From positions 2,542,001-2,606,000 of the forward strand of contig NZ_LT629740.1 of assembly GCF_900105165.1 (NCBI RefSeq): 64,000 bases of DNA, read 5' to 3'. How positions within the stretch are numbered: position 1 is the stretch's first letter; each line of letters starts with the position of its first letter. The translations under genes were made by a program, and so were the position numbers. Below, piece by piece: positions 14,322-57,374 of this stretch. Below the pieces are notes generated by a model. The model made no database searches, had not been told where the DNA came from, and saw only the letters and a list, made by a program, of their open reading frames with translations. This DNA comes from Mucilaginibacter mallensis (GTDB taxonomy: Bacteria; Bacteroidota; Bacteroidia; Sphingobacteriales; Sphingobacteriaceae).

Positions 14322-14351
14322 TTGTCATTACAAATACTTCTCGTACTTTTG
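14322..14351 (+). promoter_or_regulatory. Promoter of cobalamin riboswitch operon
   Basis: A TTG element at 14322-14324 and TACTTTTG at 14344-14351 (fits TAnnTTTG), separated by 19 bp, match the Bacteroidota sigma factor consensus. Transcription should begin near 14357, immediately before the riboswitch. Confidence 0.6.
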
Positions 14352-14358
14352 CAATGCT

Positions 14359-14537
14359 TTAGGTTTTCCTGCGAACAATATCGCTGGAAATTAAAAGGGA
14401 ATATGGTGTAAATCCATAACTGTCCCGCAGCTGTAAGCTCCATAACCATAGTCTAATCAATTAAGTCACTGTCCGCCAACCAAGCGCGACGGGAAGACGG
14501 GACGAAGGGGAGCAAGTCAGAAGACCTGCCAAAGCCA
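14359..14537 (+). ncRNA. Cobalamin (B12) riboswitch
   Basis: The conserved pieces occur in order: a GGTTTTCCTGC-type 5' strand near 14362, GGGAA...GGTGTAAATCC (14398-14415), AACTGTCCCGCAGCTGTAA (14418-14436), and the B12 box AAGTCAGAAGACCTGCC ending at 14530. It sits between a good promoter and the btuB-like receptor gene. When bound by cobalamin it should reduce expression of the downstream uptake genes. Confidence 0.95.
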
Positions 14538-14650
14538 TACTATTATTCACAGCTTTCGGGGATTGAAGCTTGAATTGTGAATGCTCTTACACAGTGTGTT
14601 TTCATTTCAAAGTTTGCTTCTTCATTGTCTGTGAGTTTAACTCATAACAA

Positions 14651-16669
14651 ATGGCAATAATTCTACAGCATTTTTTTAAGCATGTTTGGCAAAAGTCGAA
14701 GTGTTTGCTGTTGATTTTATTATTACCAGTTCAGGTATTTGCACAAAAAGATACCACCAAAAAACTCCAGGAAGTTAAAGTATCCTCATCAATCCCTAAA
14801 TTGCAAGGTGTTACACCCTCACAATCCATATCCTCAAATGATTTTGACAGGTATAGTGCTTTGACCGTGGCCGATGCGATCCGCTATTTTGCCGGAGTGA
14901 ATGTTAAAGATTATGGCGGTATAGGTGGTATAAAAACAGTATCCGTGCGTGGATTTGGCGCCAATCATACTGCCATTTTATATGATGGTGTTGAAATAAA
15001 TGATGCCGAGAACGGTCAAATAGATCTTGGTAAACTTAACTTAAATGGCGTTCAGCAGATAACGCTTTACAATGCACAGCCCGATAATATACTTACACCT
15101 GCCAAGTCATTTGCATCGGCAAGTGTAATAGCCATTAAAACCATACAGCCTAATTTAGCAGCAGATAAACCTTACCAGGTTTTACTGGGCCTTAATGGTG
15201 GTTCATTCGGGTTACTTAATCCTTATCTGCAGTGGCAGCAACGTTTAAGTAATACATGGTCATTTGTTGTTAATAGTTATTTGGAAAATGCCAATGGTCA
15301 TTATAAATATAAAACCGCAGGTGATGGTACTGATACCACACAGACCCGTACCAATACCGATGTAAGCGAGCAGGAAGTTGACGGCGCATTATACTGGGCA
15401 AAAAACGATAGCAATAAGTTTAACCTGCATATTAATTATTATAACTCAGATAGGGGGCTGCCCGGCGCGGTGGTATATTATAACCCATATTCTGACGAAC
15501 GGCTTTGGAACAGGGACTTTTTTTTGCAATCAGGATATGAGCATACCTGGGATGATGGTCTTCATTTACTCTTAAATACGAAGCTGTCACAGGAATATAC
15601 ACATTATACCGATAAGAACTATCTTAACAACAGTGGTGGCATTAATGATCAGTATACACAACGGGAGGCTTATCAATCTGTAGCATTAGCTTATCATATT
15701 ACATCAAATTGGGAAACATCCTATGCTGCTGATATCTCTTTCAGTAAGCTGGATGCCAATTTGTATAATTATGCTTATCCCACAAGATTTACCTTATTAA
15801 ATGCTTTAGCGAGTAAGCTAACATTAAACAGATGGTTATTTCAGGGCAATTTGCTGAATACCTATGTTACAGAACAAGTTAAAACAGGCAAGCCTACACC
15901 ATCTGAAACAGTTTTTTCGCCTACATTAATGGTTTCTTTTCAGCCATTTAGTCCTAATTTACAGTTCAGGACATTTTATAAAGATAGTTTTCGTGAGCCG
16001 ACGTTTGATGAGCAGTATTATTTTGCAATAAACAACATAAGCCGCAATATTAAGCCGGAATATGCCAGACAATATGATCTGGGCATTACTTACAGAAAGG
16101 CATTTAATAATTGGCTGGATTATGTTTCCTTTTCCGTAGATGGTTATTACAATACGGTAACCAATAAAATAATAGCTATACCTAATCAAAATCCTGTAAT
16201 ATCATCCATAATTAATCTTGGAAAAGTTAGGATCGAGGGTACAGATGTATCGTTAAAAACACAAACCAAAATAAGTAATGGCTGGCGCGAAGTGCTATCC
16301 GTTAATTATACTTATCAGTATGCTATTGATGTTACCAACCCTAATGATAGTTATTATAAGCAGCAAATACCTTATACCCCTAAAAACACGCTTGCCTTAA
16401 ATGCCGGGGTTGATTATAACCAAATGGGATTGTATTATAACCAGGTATTATCTTCTTCACGATATTTTTTAAGCAATAGTAATTCGGCTAACTATATTGA
16501 TGGATATGGTACTGGCGATCTGTCATTCATCTACAAACTAACAATAGCAAATAAATCTACAGTATTCTCGGCACATGCCGATAACCTGTTCAACGAAAAT
16601 TATATGATCGTGCGCAGTTTTCCTATGCCCGGTCGCTCATTCTTGCTATCATTTCAAATAACAATTTAA
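14651..16669 (+). CDS. btuB: TonB-dependent cobalamin receptor (BtuB-like)
   Basis: In this 672-residue outer-membrane receptor, a signal peptide (SKCLLLILLLPVQVFAQ) is followed by a TonB-box-like region (KKLQEVKVSS), a plug domain (about 50-165, including VSVRGFGANHTAILYDGVEI) and a 22-strand barrel whose last strand ends RSFLLSFQITI. It is directly under a cobalamin riboswitch and is followed by a BtuG-like surface lipoprotein, so cobamides are the likely cargo. The family alone would not give specificity; the riboswitch does. Overlapping the mature N-terminus, no carboxypeptidase-like extension is present, unlike SusC proteins. Confidence 0.88.
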   Translation: MAIILQHFFKHVWQKSKCLLLILLLPVQVFAQKDTTKKLQEVKVSSSIPKLQGVTPSQSISSNDFDRYSALTVADAIRYFAGVNVKDYGGIGGIKTVSVRGFGANHTAILYDGVEINDAENGQIDLGKLNLNGVQQITLYNAQPDNILTPAKSFASASVIAIKTIQPNLAADKPYQVLLGLNGGSFGLLNPYLQWQQRLSNTWSFVVNSYLENANGHYKYKTAGDGTDTTQTRTNTDVSEQEVDGALYWAKNDSNKFNLHINYYNSDRGLPGAVVYYNPYSDERLWNRDFFLQSGYEHTWDDGLHLLLNTKLSQEYTHYTDKNYLNNSGGINDQYTQREAYQSVALAYHITSNWETSYAADISFSKLDANLYNYAYPTRFTLLNALASKLTLNRWLFQGNLLNTYVTEQVKTGKPTPSETVFSPTLMVSFQPFSPNLQFRTFYKDSFREPTFDEQYYFAINNISRNIKPEYARQYDLGITYRKAFNNWLDYVSFSVDGYYNTVTNKIIAIPNQNPVISSIINLGKVRIEGTDVSLKTQTKISNGWREVLSVNYTYQYAIDVTNPNDSYYKQQIPYTPKNTLALNAGVDYNQMGLYYNQVLSSSRYFLSNSNSANYIDGYGTGDLSFIYKLTIANKSTVFSAHADNLFNENYMIVRSFPMPGRSFLLSFQITI

Positions 16670-16679
16670 CTACATAACA

Positions 16680-17741
16680 ATGAAAAATTTAAGACTAAGC
16701 ACTTTACTAACAGCCACGGTATTATCCCTTACACTGGCTTCCTGCCATAAGGATAAACAGGTTAATCTGGTTACTACACCTGTAACCGACGGTTTTTATG
16801 TATTAAACCAGGGTGGCTTTAACGACAATAACAGCAGCCTTTCGGCCTATAGCTATGCAAGCAAACAAGTTGTAGCTGATATATTTCTATCAGCAAATGG
16901 CCGCGGTTTAGGCGATACCGGTAATGATATTGAGATTTATGGTTCAAAAATGTATATCGTGGTAAACGTTTCAAGTACAATTGAAGTAGTTGATCCTAAT
17001 ACAGCGAAATCAATCAAACAAATAAAAATGTTTAACGGCACAGTAGCCCGTGAACCACGTGATGTAGTATTTTATAAAGGAAATGCTTATGTAACTTCAT
17101 ATGATGGTACTGTGGCTGTAATTGATACTGCTTCGTTAGCTGTAACCAAATACATAACTGTTGGCCGCAATCCGGAGCAATTAACGGTAGCTAATGGTAA
17201 AATATATGTAGCCAACTCCGGCGGTTTGGATTATCCTAACTATGACAATACCGTATCAGTTATCGACCCTGTTTCAGCAACCGTTACTAAAACACTTACC
17301 GTTGTGGTAAATCCGCAAAATGTAACCGCCGATGCTAATGGTAATGTTTATGTGCTTTCGGCTGGAAATTATAGTACAATACAATCAAGTTTAGAAGTTA
17401 TTGATGATAATGCAGATGTTGTAAAATCACAAACTAATTTTGATGCGGCTGCATTTACAGTAATAGGTAGCAATGCTTATTATATTACATCATTAGGTAA
17501 AGTAGGTGTTTATAATACTAAAACTCAAAGTATAAGCAATGCTGCTTTTATATCAGATGGTACTGCAATTACAGCACCTTTTGCTATCACATCTGATGCT
17601 TCAACAGGTGAGGTGTTTGTAACGGATGCTAAAGATTACGTATCAAACGGACAGGTGTTTGTGTTTGATAAAACCGGCAAAAAAGAATATGCGATTACAG
17701 TAGGCATAAACCCCGGAAGGATTGCTTTATTAAAGAAATAA
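16680..17741 (+). CDS. btuG: BtuG-like surface lipoprotein, beta-propeller (DUF5074/YncE-like)
   Basis: This 353-residue lipoprotein has its lipobox LTLASC at Cys22. The rest is made of about seven repeats of the type VVDPNTAKSIKQIKMFNGT, AVIDTASLAVTKYITVG and SVIDPVSATVTKTLTV, a YncE-like propeller. BtuG proteins of Bacteroides are seven-bladed surface lipoproteins that capture B12 with very high affinity and hand it to BtuB. Size, fold and position (10 bp after the receptor, under the same riboswitch) match. Binding here is inferred. Confidence 0.82.
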   Translation: MKNLRLSTLLTATVLSLTLASCHKDKQVNLVTTPVTDGFYVLNQGGFNDNNSSLSAYSYASKQVVADIFLSANGRGLGDTGNDIEIYGSKMYIVVNVSSTIEVVDPNTAKSIKQIKMFNGTVAREPRDVVFYKGNAYVTSYDGTVAVIDTASLAVTKYITVGRNPEQLTVANGKIYVANSGGLDYPNYDNTVSVIDPVSATVTKTLTVVVNPQNVTADANGNVYVLSAGNYSTIQSSLEVIDDNADVVKSQTNFDAAAFTVIGSNAYYITSLGKVGVYNTKTQSISNAAFISDGTAITAPFAITSDASTGEVFVTDAKDYVSNGQVFVFDKTGKKEYAITVGINPGRIALLKK

Positions 17742-17806
17742 GGCAACCTTTAATAGCATTTTATTTAAATAATATAAATGACTAATTTTACTGAATAAAT
17801 TAAACT

Positions 17807-18379
17807 ATGTCATTACAAAAAATTAACACCCGCAATATTGTACTCATATTAATGATACTGGCTGCCATCGCCTTTCGTTTTGTAAGTTATGAGTACAAGT
17901 TTTTAAGCAACTTTACACCTGTTGGTGCAATAGCCTTATTTGGTGGTGCTTATTTTACCGATAAATGGAAAGCTTATACCGTGGTGTTAGTAGCCTTGTT
18001 TTTAAGTGATATTGGCATTAACTACCTATATACATCAAAACTGGTGTTTTGGTATAGCGGGTCTGCATTAGTGTATTTAACATTTGCTATAATGGTATTT
18101 ATTGGCTCTTTAATAAAAAAGGCCAATGTTTTAAATGTAGCCCTGGCGTCGTTGGTATCTGTAGTGATCCACTGGTTAATAATTGACATGCCCTGGTTAT
18201 ACGGAACATTATACCCGCATACATTTGCTGGTTATGGGCAATCATTAGTTGCAGCTATACCTTTTGAAAAAAATATGATTCTAGGCGATGCTCTGTTTTG
18301 CGCTTTGCTATTCGGAGGTTTTGAGTTTGCACAAAGCAAATACATTATATTACGCAGTAACCAGCAATTGGCAGTTTAA
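17807..18379 (+). CDS. DUF6580-type membrane protein in B12 operon
   Basis: A 190-residue protein with five to six membrane segments. The middle phrase NFTPVGAIALFGGAYF is characteristic of DUF6580 proteins, which resemble substrate-binding (S) components of ECF transporters. It lies 65 bp after btuG with no terminator between, and a strong terminator follows it, so it belongs to the riboswitch operon. It may carry cobamides or precursors across the inner membrane. No BtuCDF genes are in the window, nor an ECF energising module. Function is inference from context. Confidence 0.75.
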   Translation: MSLQKINTRNIVLILMILAAIAFRFVSYEYKFLSNFTPVGAIALFGGAYFTDKWKAYTVVLVALFLSDIGINYLYTSKLVFWYSGSALVYLTFAIMVFIGSLIKKANVLNVALASLVSVVIHWLIIDMPWLYGTLYPHTFAGYGQSLVAAIPFEKNMILGDALFCALLFGGFEFAQSKYIILRSNQQLAV

Positions 18380-18398
18380 ATCCAAATTATCGAAATAG

Positions 18399-18435
18399 AA
18401 AAAGCCGTTTCATTATAGTATGAAACGGCTTTTTT
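18399..18435 (+). terminator. Terminator of the cobalamin operon
   Basis: AAAAAGCCGTTTCA pairs perfectly with TGAAACGGCTTTTT around a TTATAGTA loop and ends in six T. It closes the btuB-btuG-DUF6580 unit. Confidence 0.92.
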
Positions 18436-19365: not shown

Positions 19366-19507
19366 TAAAGACGCAAAGTGTTGCGTCTCTATATTTAGGG
19401 AAAACCTGTAGAGACACAATACCTTGTGTCTCTTTTAAAAGGTAAAGACGCAACACTTTGCGTCTTTTTTATAATTTTCAATCAGAGCCGCAAAATATTG
19501 CGTCTCT
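19366..19507. repeat. Cluster of four AGACGCAA-type palindromes
   Basis: Four short hairpins with the same core lie within 142 bp: 19369-19388 (AGACGCAA/TTGCGTCT), 19411-19432 (GAGACACAA/TTGTGTCTC), 19445-19466 (AAGACGCAA/TTGCGTCTT) and 19485-19506 (GAGCCGCAA/TTGCGTCTC). Loops are 3-4 nt. Copies 2-4 have compensating or single changes relative to the core, as in a REP-like family. The cluster fills the gap between the dehydrogenase and the sirtuin gene, and the last copy ends 12 bp before the sirtuin ATG. Confidence 0.8.
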
Positions 19508-19518
19508 ACGGCAGATAC

Positions 19519-20217
19519 ATGAAAAAGATAGTTATACTAACTGGCGCGGGAATAAGTGCTGAGAGCGGCTTAAAAACATTCAGAGATAGTGATGGACTGT
19601 GGGAAGGTTATAACATTGAAGATGTAGCCACGCCCGGTGCCTTGCGGCGTAATCCTCAATTAGTGCAGCACTTTTATAATGAACGCCGTAAATCAGTGCT
19701 GGAAGCTAAACCCAATGCAGCACATTATGCATTAGCAGCTCTGGAAGAAAAATATGAAGTAACCATCATCACCCAAAATATTGATGACCTGCATGAAAGG
19801 GGAGGTTCAACCAATGTTATACATCTGCATGGTATTATTACCCGGTCGCAGTCGAGTATTAATCCCGGGCTTACCTATCCGATAAATGGCTGGGAATTAG
19901 GTATGGATGAGGTTTGTGAGTTAGGTTCTCCTTTACGTGCACATGTAGTTTGGTTTGGAGAAGATGTACCCATGATTGAAACAGCTGCCAAAATTTGTGC
20001 TAAGGCCGATATATTTATCTTAACCGGTACTTCGCTGGCTGTATATCCTGCCGCCGGACTAATTAACTATGTCCCTAATTACGTGCCAAAATATATCGTC
20101 GATCCTAATATCCCACATGTGCGACAAACTAACGTGATTAAAGTACAGGAAAAAGCATCAGTTGGTGTACCTGAATTAGTTAATCAACTTTTGAACCTGG
20201 ATGCAACAGGTCTATAA
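19519..20217 (+). CDS. cobB: SIR2 family NAD-dependent deacylase (class III-like)
   Basis: The protein has 232 residues. The ATG at 19519 gives the usual short N-terminus (MKKIVILTGAGISAESG); an upstream in-frame start would translate the repeat cluster. NAD motifs are GAGISAESG and TQNIDDLHERGG, and the catalytic His is His104 in HLHG. A Tyr53-x-x-Arg56 pair (FYNERR) matches the acyl-binding YxxR of desuccinylase/demalonylase sirtuins. The zinc-binding cysteines usual between the HLHG and VVWFGE motifs are missing; only one Cys remains. It probably removes acyl groups from lysines. Confidence 0.85.
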   Translation: MKKIVILTGAGISAESGLKTFRDSDGLWEGYNIEDVATPGALRRNPQLVQHFYNERRKSVLEAKPNAAHYALAALEEKYEVTIITQNIDDLHERGGSTNVIHLHGIITRSQSSINPGLTYPINGWELGMDEVCELGSPLRAHVVWFGEDVPMIETAAKICAKADIFILTGTSLAVYPAAGLINYVPNYVPKYIVDPNIPHVRQTNVIKVQEKASVGVPELVNQLLNLDATGL

Positions 20218-20261: not shown

Positions 20262-20978
20262 ATGGTTCAAGCTATTTTCAATTGGAGCGGCGGCAAAGAC
20301 AGTTCACTTGCGCTTTACCATTGCCTGCGCGATCCTCAAATAAGCATTAAATATCTGGTTACAACAGTTAATGATGCTGTCGACAGGATTTCCATGCACG
20401 GTGTACGCGTTGAACTGCTGATAAAGCAGGCAGAAAGCATTGGCATACCCTTATATCAGATCCGCTTGCCCGAGATGCCGGGAATGAAAGAGTACGACGA
20501 GATTATGGGTCAGCATTTAAGTAAGTTCAAGTCTGAAGGTATTACCCATTCTATTTTTGGTGATATTTTTCTGGAAGATCTTAAAAATTATCGCGATGCG
20601 CGGCTGGCAGAAGTTAGCATGACGGGCATATATCCATTATGGAAACGTGATACGCACGAACTGATAGATGAGTTTCTGGACTTGGGATTTGGTACCGTAA
20701 TAGCCTGCACCCAGGAGCGGCTGGAATGTATAGCAGGGAAGGAGATAAGCCATGAACTTATTGCCGGCTTACCAACCGATGTTGATGTTTGCGGAGAAAA
20801 CGGCGAGTTTCATACTTTTGCCTTTAAAGGTCCCATCTTTTCAAAAGAAATAAAATATAAAACAGGAGAAAAGGTATTTAAGGAATACAATGCACCCAAG
20901 GACGCGAACGATAGCTGTGTTGCAGTGAATGATCAGAAACGCTCGGGATTTTGGTATTGTGATTTATTACCGGAATAA
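20262..20978 (+). CDS. DUF71/COG2102 ATP pyrophosphatase (Dph6-like)
   Basis: This 238-residue protein has the PP-loop SGGKDS at 9-14, the DUF71 core (RISMHGVRVELL, then GDIFLEDLKNYRD) and the closing ENGEFHTFAFKGP. Archaeal and eukaryotic relatives (Dph6) amidate diphthine; bacteria lack diphthamide. Published comparative genomics of DUF71 proposed that a bacterial subgroup acts in B12 salvage. Its location 2 kb from a riboswitch-controlled B12 uptake operon fits that view but does not prove it. It is commonly annotated as diphthine--ammonia ligase, which is unlikely to be its true role here. Confidence 0.8.
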   Translation: MVQAIFNWSGGKDSSLALYHCLRDPQISIKYLVTTVNDAVDRISMHGVRVELLIKQAESIGIPLYQIRLPEMPGMKEYDEIMGQHLSKFKSEGITHSIFGDIFLEDLKNYRDARLAEVSMTGIYPLWKRDTHELIDEFLDLGFGTVIACTQERLECIAGKEISHELIAGLPTDVDVCGENGEFHTFAFKGPIFSKEIKYKTGEKVFKEYNAPKDANDSCVAVNDQKRSGFWYCDLLPE

Positions 20979-53250: not shown

Positions 53251-53304
53251 CAACAATATTTGGTAGCGATATCAAATGAGATCAACTCCCCTTAAAAGGT
53301 TTTG

Positions 53305-53413
53305 ATTTATAAAGAAGCGGCGAGAGATCAGGCTCAATTACCCGCTGGCAACCCTCTAAGTTTAGAGAAGGTGCCAATTCCTGTCCCGGCAAATAACACC
53401 GGGGGATATAAAT
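53305..53413 (+). ncRNA. SAM riboswitch (S-box family)
   Basis: The core pieces are present in order: GAGAGATCAGGCTC (53322-53335), CCCGCTGGCAACC (about 53341-53353), an internal CTCTAAGTTTAGAG hairpin, and AAGGTGCCAATTCCTG (53369-53384). P1 is closed by ATTTATA (53305-53311) and TATAAAT (53407-53413). It lies upstream of metY-metX-hom. The 3' P1 strand ends 8 bp before the leader ORF's ATG, so folding could directly hide that start. Confidence 0.9.
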
Positions 53414-53421
53414 TAACGACC

Positions 53422-53642: not shown

Positions 53643-54980
<1,338 letters not shown>

Positions 54981-55029
54981 TATTGAGTTTTTTTTTAGTT
55001 TTTTAGTGATAATAGTGTTGTTACGGGAT

Positions 55030-55051
55030 GCAGCTGCCAACAAGCAGCTGC
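55030..55051 (+). promoter_or_regulatory. Stable hairpin in metY-metX gap
   Basis: GCAGCTGC at 55030-55037 and again at 55044-55051 (each self-complementary) pair around CAACAA. The stem ends 22 bp before the metX ATG, so it might affect metX translation or protect an end after processing. No T-tract follows. Confidence 0.5.
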
Positions 55052-55073
55052 ACCGCAATAACAAAACGGTAAC

Positions 55074-56129
55074 ATGAATACACAAATATTTAAAAGTACA
55101 CAACCACTTGAGCTTGAATCGGGACAGCGGATACAGCAACTGGAAATAGGTTATCATACCTATGGTAAATTAAATACAAACCGGAACAACGTTGTGTGGG
55201 TATGCCACGCGCTCACAGCAAATTCAGATGTGATGGACTGGTGGAAAGGTTTGTTCGGCGAGAATGAATTTTTCAACCCTGAAGAGCATTTTATTGTTTG
55301 CGCTAATATTTTAGGGTCGCCTTATGGTACAAGTAATCCACTGAGTGAAAACCCTGTAACCGGGCAGTCTTATTACCTGGCATTTCCGCAGTTTACAGTA
55401 AGGGATATTATTAAGGCACATCAACAATTGGCTGAGCATCTTAAGATAGATCAGATCGAGATATTGATAGGTGGTTCATTAGGTGGCCAGCAGGCTGCTG
55501 AGTGGGCAATTATTGAGCCATTACGTATAAAGAACCTGATATTGATAGCGACTAATGCCCGTCATTCACCATGGGGTATCGCGTTCAATGAATCACAGCG
55601 CCTGGCACTATCAGCCGACCGTACTTTTTATTCAAATACCCCTGATGGTGGCAGAAAAGGTTTAAAAGCAGCACGTAGTATTGCGCTCCTATCCTACCGT
55701 GGTTATAAAACTTACACGGTGAGCCAGCAGGATGAAAATGATAACATTAGCGATGACCACCGCGCATCATCATACCAAAATTACCAGGGCGAAAAGCTGG
55801 TGAACCGGTTTAATGCTTATAGCTACTGGTATTTAAGCAAGGCTATGGACTCGCACAATGTAGGCCGTAACCGTAATGGTGTTGAGAAAGCATTAAGTCT
55901 GATAAAAGCCCGTACATTGGTTATCGGCATAAAATCAGATGTATTATTCCCGGTTGAGGAACAGCAATACCTGTTCAGGCATATACCAAAATCAGCATTT
56001 GCTGAGTTTGATTCCTTTTACGGTCACGATGGATTTTTAATTGAAACAGAAGCATTAACAAATATTATAACGTCTTTCTTTAAAACAGATGTAAAAGGAA
56101 AGATAATAGAACTACAAAGAATAGCATAA
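55074..56129 (+). CDS. metX: Homoserine O-acetyltransferase
   Basis: A 351-residue alpha/beta-hydrolase-fold enzyme. The nucleophile elbow is IGGSLGGQQAAEWA (Ser near 141), with HALTANSDV early and the late Asp/His pair in IGIKSDVLFP and SFYGHDGFL. It transfers acetyl from acetyl-CoA to homoserine, making the substrate for MetY. It sits between metY and hom, all under the same riboswitch. Confidence 0.93.
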   Translation: MNTQIFKSTQPLELESGQRIQQLEIGYHTYGKLNTNRNNVVWVCHALTANSDVMDWWKGLFGENEFFNPEEHFIVCANILGSPYGTSNPLSENPVTGQSYYLAFPQFTVRDIIKAHQQLAEHLKIDQIEILIGGSLGGQQAAEWAIIEPLRIKNLILIATNARHSPWGIAFNESQRLALSADRTFYSNTPDGGRKGLKAARSIALLSYRGYKTYTVSQQDENDNISDDHRASSYQNYQGEKLVNRFNAYSYWYLSKAMDSHNVGRNRNGVEKALSLIKARTLVIGIKSDVLFPVEEQQYLFRHIPKSAFAEFDSFYGHDGFLIETEALTNIITSFFKTDVKGKIIELQRIA

Positions 56130-56135
56130 CACATA

Positions 56136-57374
56136 ATGAGTAAGAAATTAAATATAGGGTTGTTTGGTTTTGGCGTTGTTGGCCAGGGATTATATGATAT
56201 TATCAAAACCAAGAACCTGAATCTTGAAATAGTTAAAATAGCAATCAAAAATCCGGAGAAGAAACGTTCATTACCAGCAGAAATATTTACTACTGATAAG
56301 GAAGAAATACTAAACAACCCGGAGCTCAACACCATTGTTGAGCTAATCAACGATACCGAAGCTGCATTTGAGATTGTATCCCGTGCACTAAGTACAGGCA
56401 AAAATGTAGTATCGGCCAGCAAGAAAATGATCGCTACTTATTTAAATGAGTTGATTGAATTACAGCATATTCATGGCACTTCTTTATTATACGAAGGCGC
56501 GGTTTGCGGTAGTATACCAATTATCCGTAACCTGGAAGAGTATTATGACAATGAATTACTGCACTCTATCAGCGGTATTTTTAACGGATCATCAAACTAT
56601 GTATTATCAAAAGGTTATTTAGAAAATCTTGATTACGATACAGCATTAAAACAGGCTCAGGACTTAGGTTTTGCTGAAACAGATCCAACCAGTGATGTAG
56701 GTGGATTTGATGCTAAATATAAACTGATAATAGCCGCATCTCATGCCTATGGCGTAATTGTTAAGCCTGAAGAGGTATTGAATATCGGTATTCAGAACTT
56801 AACAGCCAGCGACCTGCAGTATGCCCGTGAGAAGAAATTAAAGATAAAACTTGTGCCGGTTGCCAAAGAACTTGACGACAGGCATGTTACCATGTTTGTA
56901 CTGCCAAAGTTTGTAAACGAAACTGAGTTTTTATACAATGTTGAGTATGAATATAACGGTGTAACTGTACAGGCCGCGTTTGCCGATCAGCAATTCTTTT
57001 TCGGCAAAGGTGCCGGTGGTCATCCTACTGGTTCTGCTGTTTTATCTGATATTGCAGCATTACGTTACAATTATCAATACGAATACAAAAAAGCAAAAGG
57101 CAAAAAAGACTTGAACTTTACCAATAACGTTGAATTGAACGTGTATTTACGCTATGAGGATGAAGCACTTGTAGAGGTCCTTAACTTTAAACACATTCAT
57201 GAGCGTTACCACTCAGACAGCTATAAATTTGTGATTGGAAAGATCAACCTGCAAAATCTGATCGATAATCAATTGCTTATAGCGGATAACAAGGCATTTA
57301 TAGCCTTTGCTGATCAGTTAACAGGAGTTAGTTTAGCTCCGGCAGTAAAATTAACAGCTGAAGTTGTTGAGTAG
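56136..57374 (+). CDS. hom: Homoserine dehydrogenase
   Basis: A 412-residue enzyme. The Rossmann motif GLFGFGVVGQGL is at residues 8-19, the catalytic region includes EGAVCGSIPIIRNL and GIFNGSSNYVLSKG, and FAETDPTSDVGGFDAKYKL is highly typical. It reduces aspartate semialdehyde to homoserine for threonine and methionine. The end has a short variable domain rather than an ACT-type regulator. It begins 6 bp after metX and is followed by a strong terminator. Confidence 0.95.
   Translation: MSKKLNIGLFGFGVVGQGLYDIIKTKNLNLEIVKIAIKNPEKKRSLPAEIFTTDKEEILNNPELNTIVELINDTEAAFEIVSRALSTGKNVVSASKKMIATYLNELIELQHIHGTSLLYEGAVCGSIPIIRNLEEYYDNELLHSISGIFNGSSNYVLSKGYLENLDYDTALKQAQDLGFAETDPTSDVGGFDAKYKLIIAASHAYGVIVKPEEVLNIGIQNLTASDLQYAREKKLKIKLVPVAKELDDRHVTMFVLPKFVNETEFLYNVEYEYNGVTVQAAFADQQFFFGKGAGGHPTGSAVLSDIAALRYNYQYEYKKAKGKKDLNFTNNVELNVYLRYEDEALVEVLNFKHIHERYHSDSYKFVIGKINLQNLIDNQLLIADNKAFIAFADQLTGVSLAPAVKLTAEVVE

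Follow-up and report, generated by a model that had tools for sequence, protein, structure and literature searches.

Many B12-dependent bacteria have been reported to carry an outer-membrane B12 receptor while a known inner-membrane transporter is absent (PMC6072759), and the Bacteroidota almost never make their own B12 (0.6%; PMC8123684). In B. thetaiotaomicron, BtuB and BtuG transport complete B12 (PMC10404256), and the inner-membrane partner of BtuB1-BtuG1 (8blw) is BtuCD. BtuCDF is a type II ABC importer. Two other kinds of transporter are close to the subject of this report: BtuM, a solitary B12 transporter from Proteobacteria that resembles an S-component (Rempel et al. 2018, PMC6072759; structures 8c7p and 8ovv), and CbrT and other ECF S-components (PMC5997447), which take vitamin-type substrates and need the EcfT/EcfA module. 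From the literature on BtuM, B12 transporters and Bacteroidetes B12 transport, we found no paper naming DUF6580 and no proposal of this family; subscription papers and preprints lay outside that scope, and an earlier proposal is possible.

We analysed a window of 64,000 nucleotides, the whole stretch of Mucilaginibacter mallensis DNA under study, and found the following unit:

14344-14547, + strand: cobalamin (AdoCbl) riboswitch aptamer, RF00174 (cmscan 108.1 bits against a gathering score of 31.5, E 4e-26, full model length).
14651-16669, + strand: BtuB1-type TonB-dependent B12 receptor, 672 aa (Pfam plug and barrel; closest solved relative B. thetaiotaomicron BtuB1, 8blw_A, E 3.8e-135).
16680-17741, + strand: BtuG1-type surface beta-propeller lipoprotein, 353 aa (closest solved relatives BtuG1-type chains including 8blw_B, E 1.5e-66; PF16819, DUF5074; lipobox LASC).
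17807-18379, + strand: DUF6580 membrane protein, 190 aa, with a predicted S-component fold (PF20221 as the sole Pfam match, E 2e-53; AlphaFold2 model, structure matches and phylogenetic profile).
About 18398-18435, + strand: intrinsic terminator, a 16-pair stem ending in a U run (fold -21.7 kcal/mol, z -6.3; sequence).

These results confirmed each part of the unit described in the earlier note, a riboswitch, BtuB, BtuG and DUF6580 closed by a strong terminator. The riboswitch itself stood as claimed, but its start had been placed at 14359, 15 bases late. The receptor and the adjoining lipoprotein form the gene pair of a BtuB-BtuG surface complex and are clear relatives of BtuB1 and BtuG1 of B. 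thetaiotaomicron; where the latter has BtuCD as its partner, the M. mallensis unit has DUF6580, of which the genome holds one copy. The gap between BtuG and DUF6580 folded no better than chance (z 0.05), so that BtuB, BtuG and DUF6580 plausibly share one transcript.

To describe the third protein, we used an AlphaFold2 model of M. mallensis DUF6580 (48 sequences, pLDDT 91, pTM 0.86). The first 17 listed structure matches were all ECF S-components, with Z from 12.8 to 8.4, and unrelated proteins appeared from 5.9 down; BtuM was tied first (169 residues, 3.9 A). We also modelled a distant member, from a contig labelled Phycisphaerales (pLDDT 90); its first 22 matches were S-components, led by two BtuM structures (Z 14.3, 166 residues, 3.4 A), and the last S-component stood at Z 8.5, with the next match at 6.6. 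High Z values are common among helical proteins, and the argument is the uniform match list together with the gap beneath it. Foldseek matched the DUF6580 model to S-components at E 0.3-0.5. Among all PDB chains, which include BtuM, neither a single-sequence (phmmer) nor a profile search gave an S-component match up to E 10, and a Pfam scan at weak threshold gave no sequence link between DUF6580 and known S-components. These models predict that DUF6580 has the six-helix fold of an ECF S-component, and the resemblance that had been guessed from sequence was borne out in both. Over 216 sequences, Arg24, Tyr90, Gly142, Asp68, Tyr136, Asn35 and Pro152 (M. mallensis numbering) were conserved at 97-100%.

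BtuM and DUF6580 are alike in having about 190 aa, six helices and the S-component fold (Z 12.8 and 14.3, for DUF6580 from models), in occurring with BtuB where BtuCDF is absent, and in having no ECF module. However, their sequence similarity is not detectable, BtuM is described mostly from Proteobacteria whereas DUF6580 is found across Bacteroidota, and DUF6580, unlike BtuM, is often paired with a BtuF-like protein. BtuM also has an invariant, essential Cys80 in loop 3, the axial ligand of cobalt, whereas no Cys column in loop 3 of DUF6580 (residues 77-85) exceeded 2% over the 216 sequences, and BtuM-like cysteine chemistry was therefore rejected for DUF6580. Cys was most frequent at residue 146, where 43% of the sequences have it and most of the rest have Ser; with few exceptions, members have one of these two at residue 146 and either His or Phe at residue 122. 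Since the Cys80 test failed and sequence kinship was not found, DUF6580 should not be named BtuM, although it most likely works like BtuM.

To describe the B12 economy of M. mallensis, we used its closed genome of 6.01 Mb. The absences reported here rest on single-family searches of that genome, and the CbiC, CobS, FecCD and EcfT searches each recovered their own family in well-known control genomes. The B12-dependent methionine synthase MetH is present (E 1e-133), and two further cobalamin riboswitches (locus L004, 6933-7144 on the + strand and 14725-14930 on the - strand) lie upstream of nrdB-nrdA, the class I ribonucleotide reductase, and of metE, each of which encodes a B12-independent isoenzyme. 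MetH and the riboswitches on metE and nrdBA indicate that B12 reaches the cytoplasm. CbiC was not found in the genome, which means no de novo corrin ring, and CobS was not found there either, so that B12 is imported whole. There was no PF01032 match (FecCD/BtuC permease) in the whole closed genome and no PF02361 match (EcfT), which leaves neither BtuCDF nor an ECF transporter able to import B12. Therefore, the B12 that M. mallensis uses is imported in complete form, with no BtuCD pump. The absence of BtuCDF, noticed earlier in the window, thus held across the closed genome for its BtuC part, the part that the search covered. The importer families in the genome-wide search were BtuC/FecCD and EcfT. 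CbrT-type S-components share the predicted fold, but EcfT, which they need, is absent from M. mallensis and from 64 of 70 DUF6580 genomes, and an ECF-module partner for DUF6580 was rejected in the M. mallensis genome because it has no EcfT.

These absences bear on the alternative that DUF6580 imports a precursor or part of B12 (cobinamide, a lower-ligand base or cobalt) and not complete cobamides. Cobalt and lower-ligand transporters are likewise known under B12 control, and many DUF6580 operons contain CobU, CobT and CobS, which use cobinamide and bases. However, CobS was not found in M. mallensis and eight other DUF6580 genomes, and the 70 genomes with DUF6580 and without FecCD contained MetH in 68, EcfT in 6 and CbiC in none, yet DUF6580 is kept in all of them. 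Without CobS and CbiC, cobalt, bases and cobinamide are not convertible to B12 there by these routes. The transport of cobalt or of a de novo precursor is disfavoured by the CbiC result. In addition, DUF6580 adjoins BtuB and BtuG, the carriers of complete B12 in B. thetaiotaomicron (PMC10404256). The precursor carrier, which the earlier note had left as a second option, is thus disfavoured, and we consider it unlikely; cobinamide is possible as an additional substrate of DUF6580.

A phylogenetic profile, which the earlier note had proposed, was run on 392 Bacteroidota genomes with at least 90% completeness. Only full-length FecCD matches were counted, and weak ones (below about 50 bits) were excluded as probably other ABC permeases; the FecCD family includes siderophore permeases, so that FecCD counts are not equal to BtuC counts. 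DUF6580 was found in 161 of the 392 genomes. The results showed near mutual exclusion: both families in 25 genomes, DUF6580 only in 136, FecCD only in 228 and neither in 3 (Fisher p 1e-74, for genomes that kinship makes non-independent). Since FecCD also serves siderophores, the 25 genomes with both are expected. Within the 375 genomes bearing a riboswitch, the numbers were 131 with DUF6580 only, 217 with FecCD only, 25 with both and 2 with neither. We also tallied by hand, from the genome-level results, the majority state of 57 families, and found DUF6580 without FecCD in 24, FecCD without DUF6580 in 30, both or a tie in 3 and neither in 0 (p 4e-13). Such a distribution is what two unrelated parts serving one and the same function would give. 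The cobalamin riboswitch is present in 375 of the 392 genomes, and because it is near-universal in the phylum, its association with DUF6580 is uninformative phylum-wide and the argument at that level is carried by the FecCD complementarity. In the M. mallensis family (201 genomes) the association is informative: DUF6580 and the riboswitch occurred both in 139, one only in 5 and 9, and neither in 48 (139/5/9/48; p 3e-31). A BtuCDF elsewhere in the genome, which could have accounted for uptake, was therefore found neither as a FecCD permease in M. mallensis nor as the usual companion of DUF6580 in the phylum, where the two replace one another.

To compare gene neighbourhoods, we took two sets of 80 loci, one drawn from the phylum sample, for the most part with a single locus per genus, and one of named loci, mostly from Mucilaginibacter and relatives. 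A B12 box lay upstream on the same strand in 29 of the 80 phylum-sample loci, further upstream in 25, where BtuB was usually recognised in the locus, and with DUF6580 as the first gene in 4; among the named loci it lay upstream in 62 of 80. The riboswitches at eight sampled loci were confirmed by Rfam. DUF6580 directly preceded by a riboswitch occurs in several genera, and two loci (L053 and L054) have their own riboswitch immediately 5' of it. Outside the M. mallensis family, roughly one sampled locus in two had no B12 gene nearby. The richest operons (L127, L134 and L129) read riboswitch, BtuB, DUF6580, BtuF-like gene, CobU, DUF71, CobT, CobS and CobC, with no BtuCD; each is a complete import and salvage operon with DUF6580 in the expected place of BtuCD. 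At a locus from a genome without DUF6580 (L035), the riboswitch was followed by an epimerase-like gene, a cobalamin adenosyltransferase, BtuC and BtuD. Compared with BtuCDF, DUF6580 has the same proposed job and the same operon place, and the BtuF-like protein is kept in some DUF6580 operons, but the permease of the BtuC family is absent from M. mallensis and DUF6580 is unrelated to BtuC. At the locus of an Olivibacter relative (L046), two tandem alpha-L-fucosidase genes adjoin DUF6580 at the place expected for BtuB.

The operon place also bears on the possibility that DUF6580 is an S-component-like accessory, which would sense B12 in the membrane or else decyanate or handle it, and that B12 is carried by another importer that has gone unrecognised. 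Membrane receptors share the S-component fold (PMC11109136), BtuM modifies B12 too (PMC6072759), and a BacA/SbmA-type importer would not belong to the BtuC/FecCD and EcfT families that the genome search covered. On the other hand, exclusivity with BtuCD would be unexpected for a mere accessory, DUF6580 occupies BtuCD's place in complete operons, and the reactive loop-3 Cys of BtuM is missing in DUF6580. We regard an accessory role as a little less probable still than precursor import.

We then placed 112 DUF6580 sequences on a tree, 65 of them linked to B12 by B12 genes or a B12 box. The results showed that linked and unlinked members interleave, with 25 changes, at least 10 of which are forced by well-supported branches, suggesting that the B12 linkage was gained or lost many times and does not belong to one side branch. 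The earlier note had set against its own reading a family found mainly in genomes or operons without B12 genes. At the level of genomes this was not what we found (156 of 161 have cobalamin riboswitches and 68 of 70 have MetH), whereas the loci were mixed (29 of 80 behind a B12 box and 65 of 112 tree rows linked to B12). In one Bacteroidota family (f24; L138 and loci of the same order), DUF6580 stands among YceI, methylpurine-DNA glycosylase (MPG), BrkB and MutS genes, a fixed housekeeping neighbourhood at a distance from B12 genes, and some genomes of the YceI/MPG/MutS type hold a second, riboswitch-linked copy (G276). Some DUF6580 paralogues may do a different job. A reading of DUF6580 as a small, general membrane protein with an unrelated function, a lineage-driven distribution and accidental B12 loci is very improbable and the least likely of the alternatives: one large family does keep DUF6580 in a conserved non-B12 neighbourhood and some genomes have two copies, but the B12 linkage with its forced changes occurs all over the family tree, DUF6580 stands directly behind riboswitches in several genera, and the FecCD exclusivity survives the collapse to families.

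A BtuF-like gene (PF01497) was found at 12 distinct loci (L127, L129, L133, L134, L139, L196, L132 and five more). It adjoined DUF6580 on the same strand in all 12, overlapping it in several, and no BtuCD permease was recognised near these loci. The BtuF-like protein is apparently a periplasmic binding protein without its ABC pump. It has no close PDB relative, and a BtuF match, itself weak, was obtained for one member only, so that the name rests on PF01497 and context. The pair of DUF6580 and BtuF-like genes at L132 lies on a 7.6 kb contig labelled Phycisphaerales; either the pair has spread outside Bacteroidota or the contig was misbinned.

These results suggest that where BtuCD is missing, as in a large part of the Bacteroidota, DUF6580 very probably takes vitamin B12 (cobamides) across the inner membrane. 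The earlier suggestion to this effect is supported, though not proven, by the absences in the genome, the FecCD complementarity and the predicted fold. The carrier reading is based on the gene order, the riboswitch, the absence of BtuC, EcfT, CbiC and CobS, and the complementary distribution, together with the modelled fold. The mechanism that we infer, from its substrate (B12 itself), direction and energy source to the hand-over by BtuF, begins with the riboswitch, which would permit expression of the unit when B12 is scarce. BtuG and BtuB would capture B12, and TonB energy would bring it across the outer membrane. DUF6580 would then bind B12 on the periplasmic side, in a cysteine-free mode, and release it into the cell with no need of an ECF ATPase module, as is thought for solitary BtuM, and B12 would be retained in the cell through enzyme binding and adenosylation. 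In many relatives, the adjoining BtuF-like protein probably hands B12 to DUF6580. More tentatively, and with some doubt, DUF6580 may form a class of its own among S-component importers, one that needs no module and is fed in many species by a BtuF-like protein without an ATPase, and may be the main inner-membrane route of B12 in roughly half of the sampled Bacteroidota families; an ABC-type BtuF family protein would then feed a non-ABC carrier. As a B12 carrier, the family, with its 161 of 392 genomes, would almost perfectly fill the BtuCD gap in Bacteroidota, and genome-based predictions of B12 uptake could be corrected. It would also provide a second, cysteine-free case for study of the still unsolved ATP-free transport of a vitamin by a lone S-component.

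The B12 neighbourhood of M. mallensis reaches beyond the terminator. On its 3' side lie a 6-phosphogluconate-dehydrogenase-like gene, a SIR2 gene and a DUF71 gene, the last two of which belong to a B12 island that is conserved in relatives:

19426-20217, + strand: SIR2-family protein (CobB-like), PF02146, clustering with the SIR2 gene at the end of the B12 island in relatives; the likely start codon is an ATG near 19519.
20262-20978, + strand: DUF71/COG2102 PP-loop protein, PF01902, assigned by context to the B12-salvage subgroup and linked with CobU, CobT and CobS in relatives.

A role in B12 salvage has been predicted for a bacterial DUF71 subgroup (PMC3541065). Downstream of the dehydrogenase-like gene, two hairpins (19369-19388 and 19444-19467) share the common core GACGCAAAGTG/CACTTTGCGTC, and one of them is terminator-like. 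Elsewhere in the window, a SAM riboswitch (RF00162, 75 bits, 53304-53414) lies 5' of methionine genes at 53655-57374, which resemble O-acetylhomoserine sulfhydrylase, MetX and homoserine dehydrogenase, an ordinary control of methionine synthesis.
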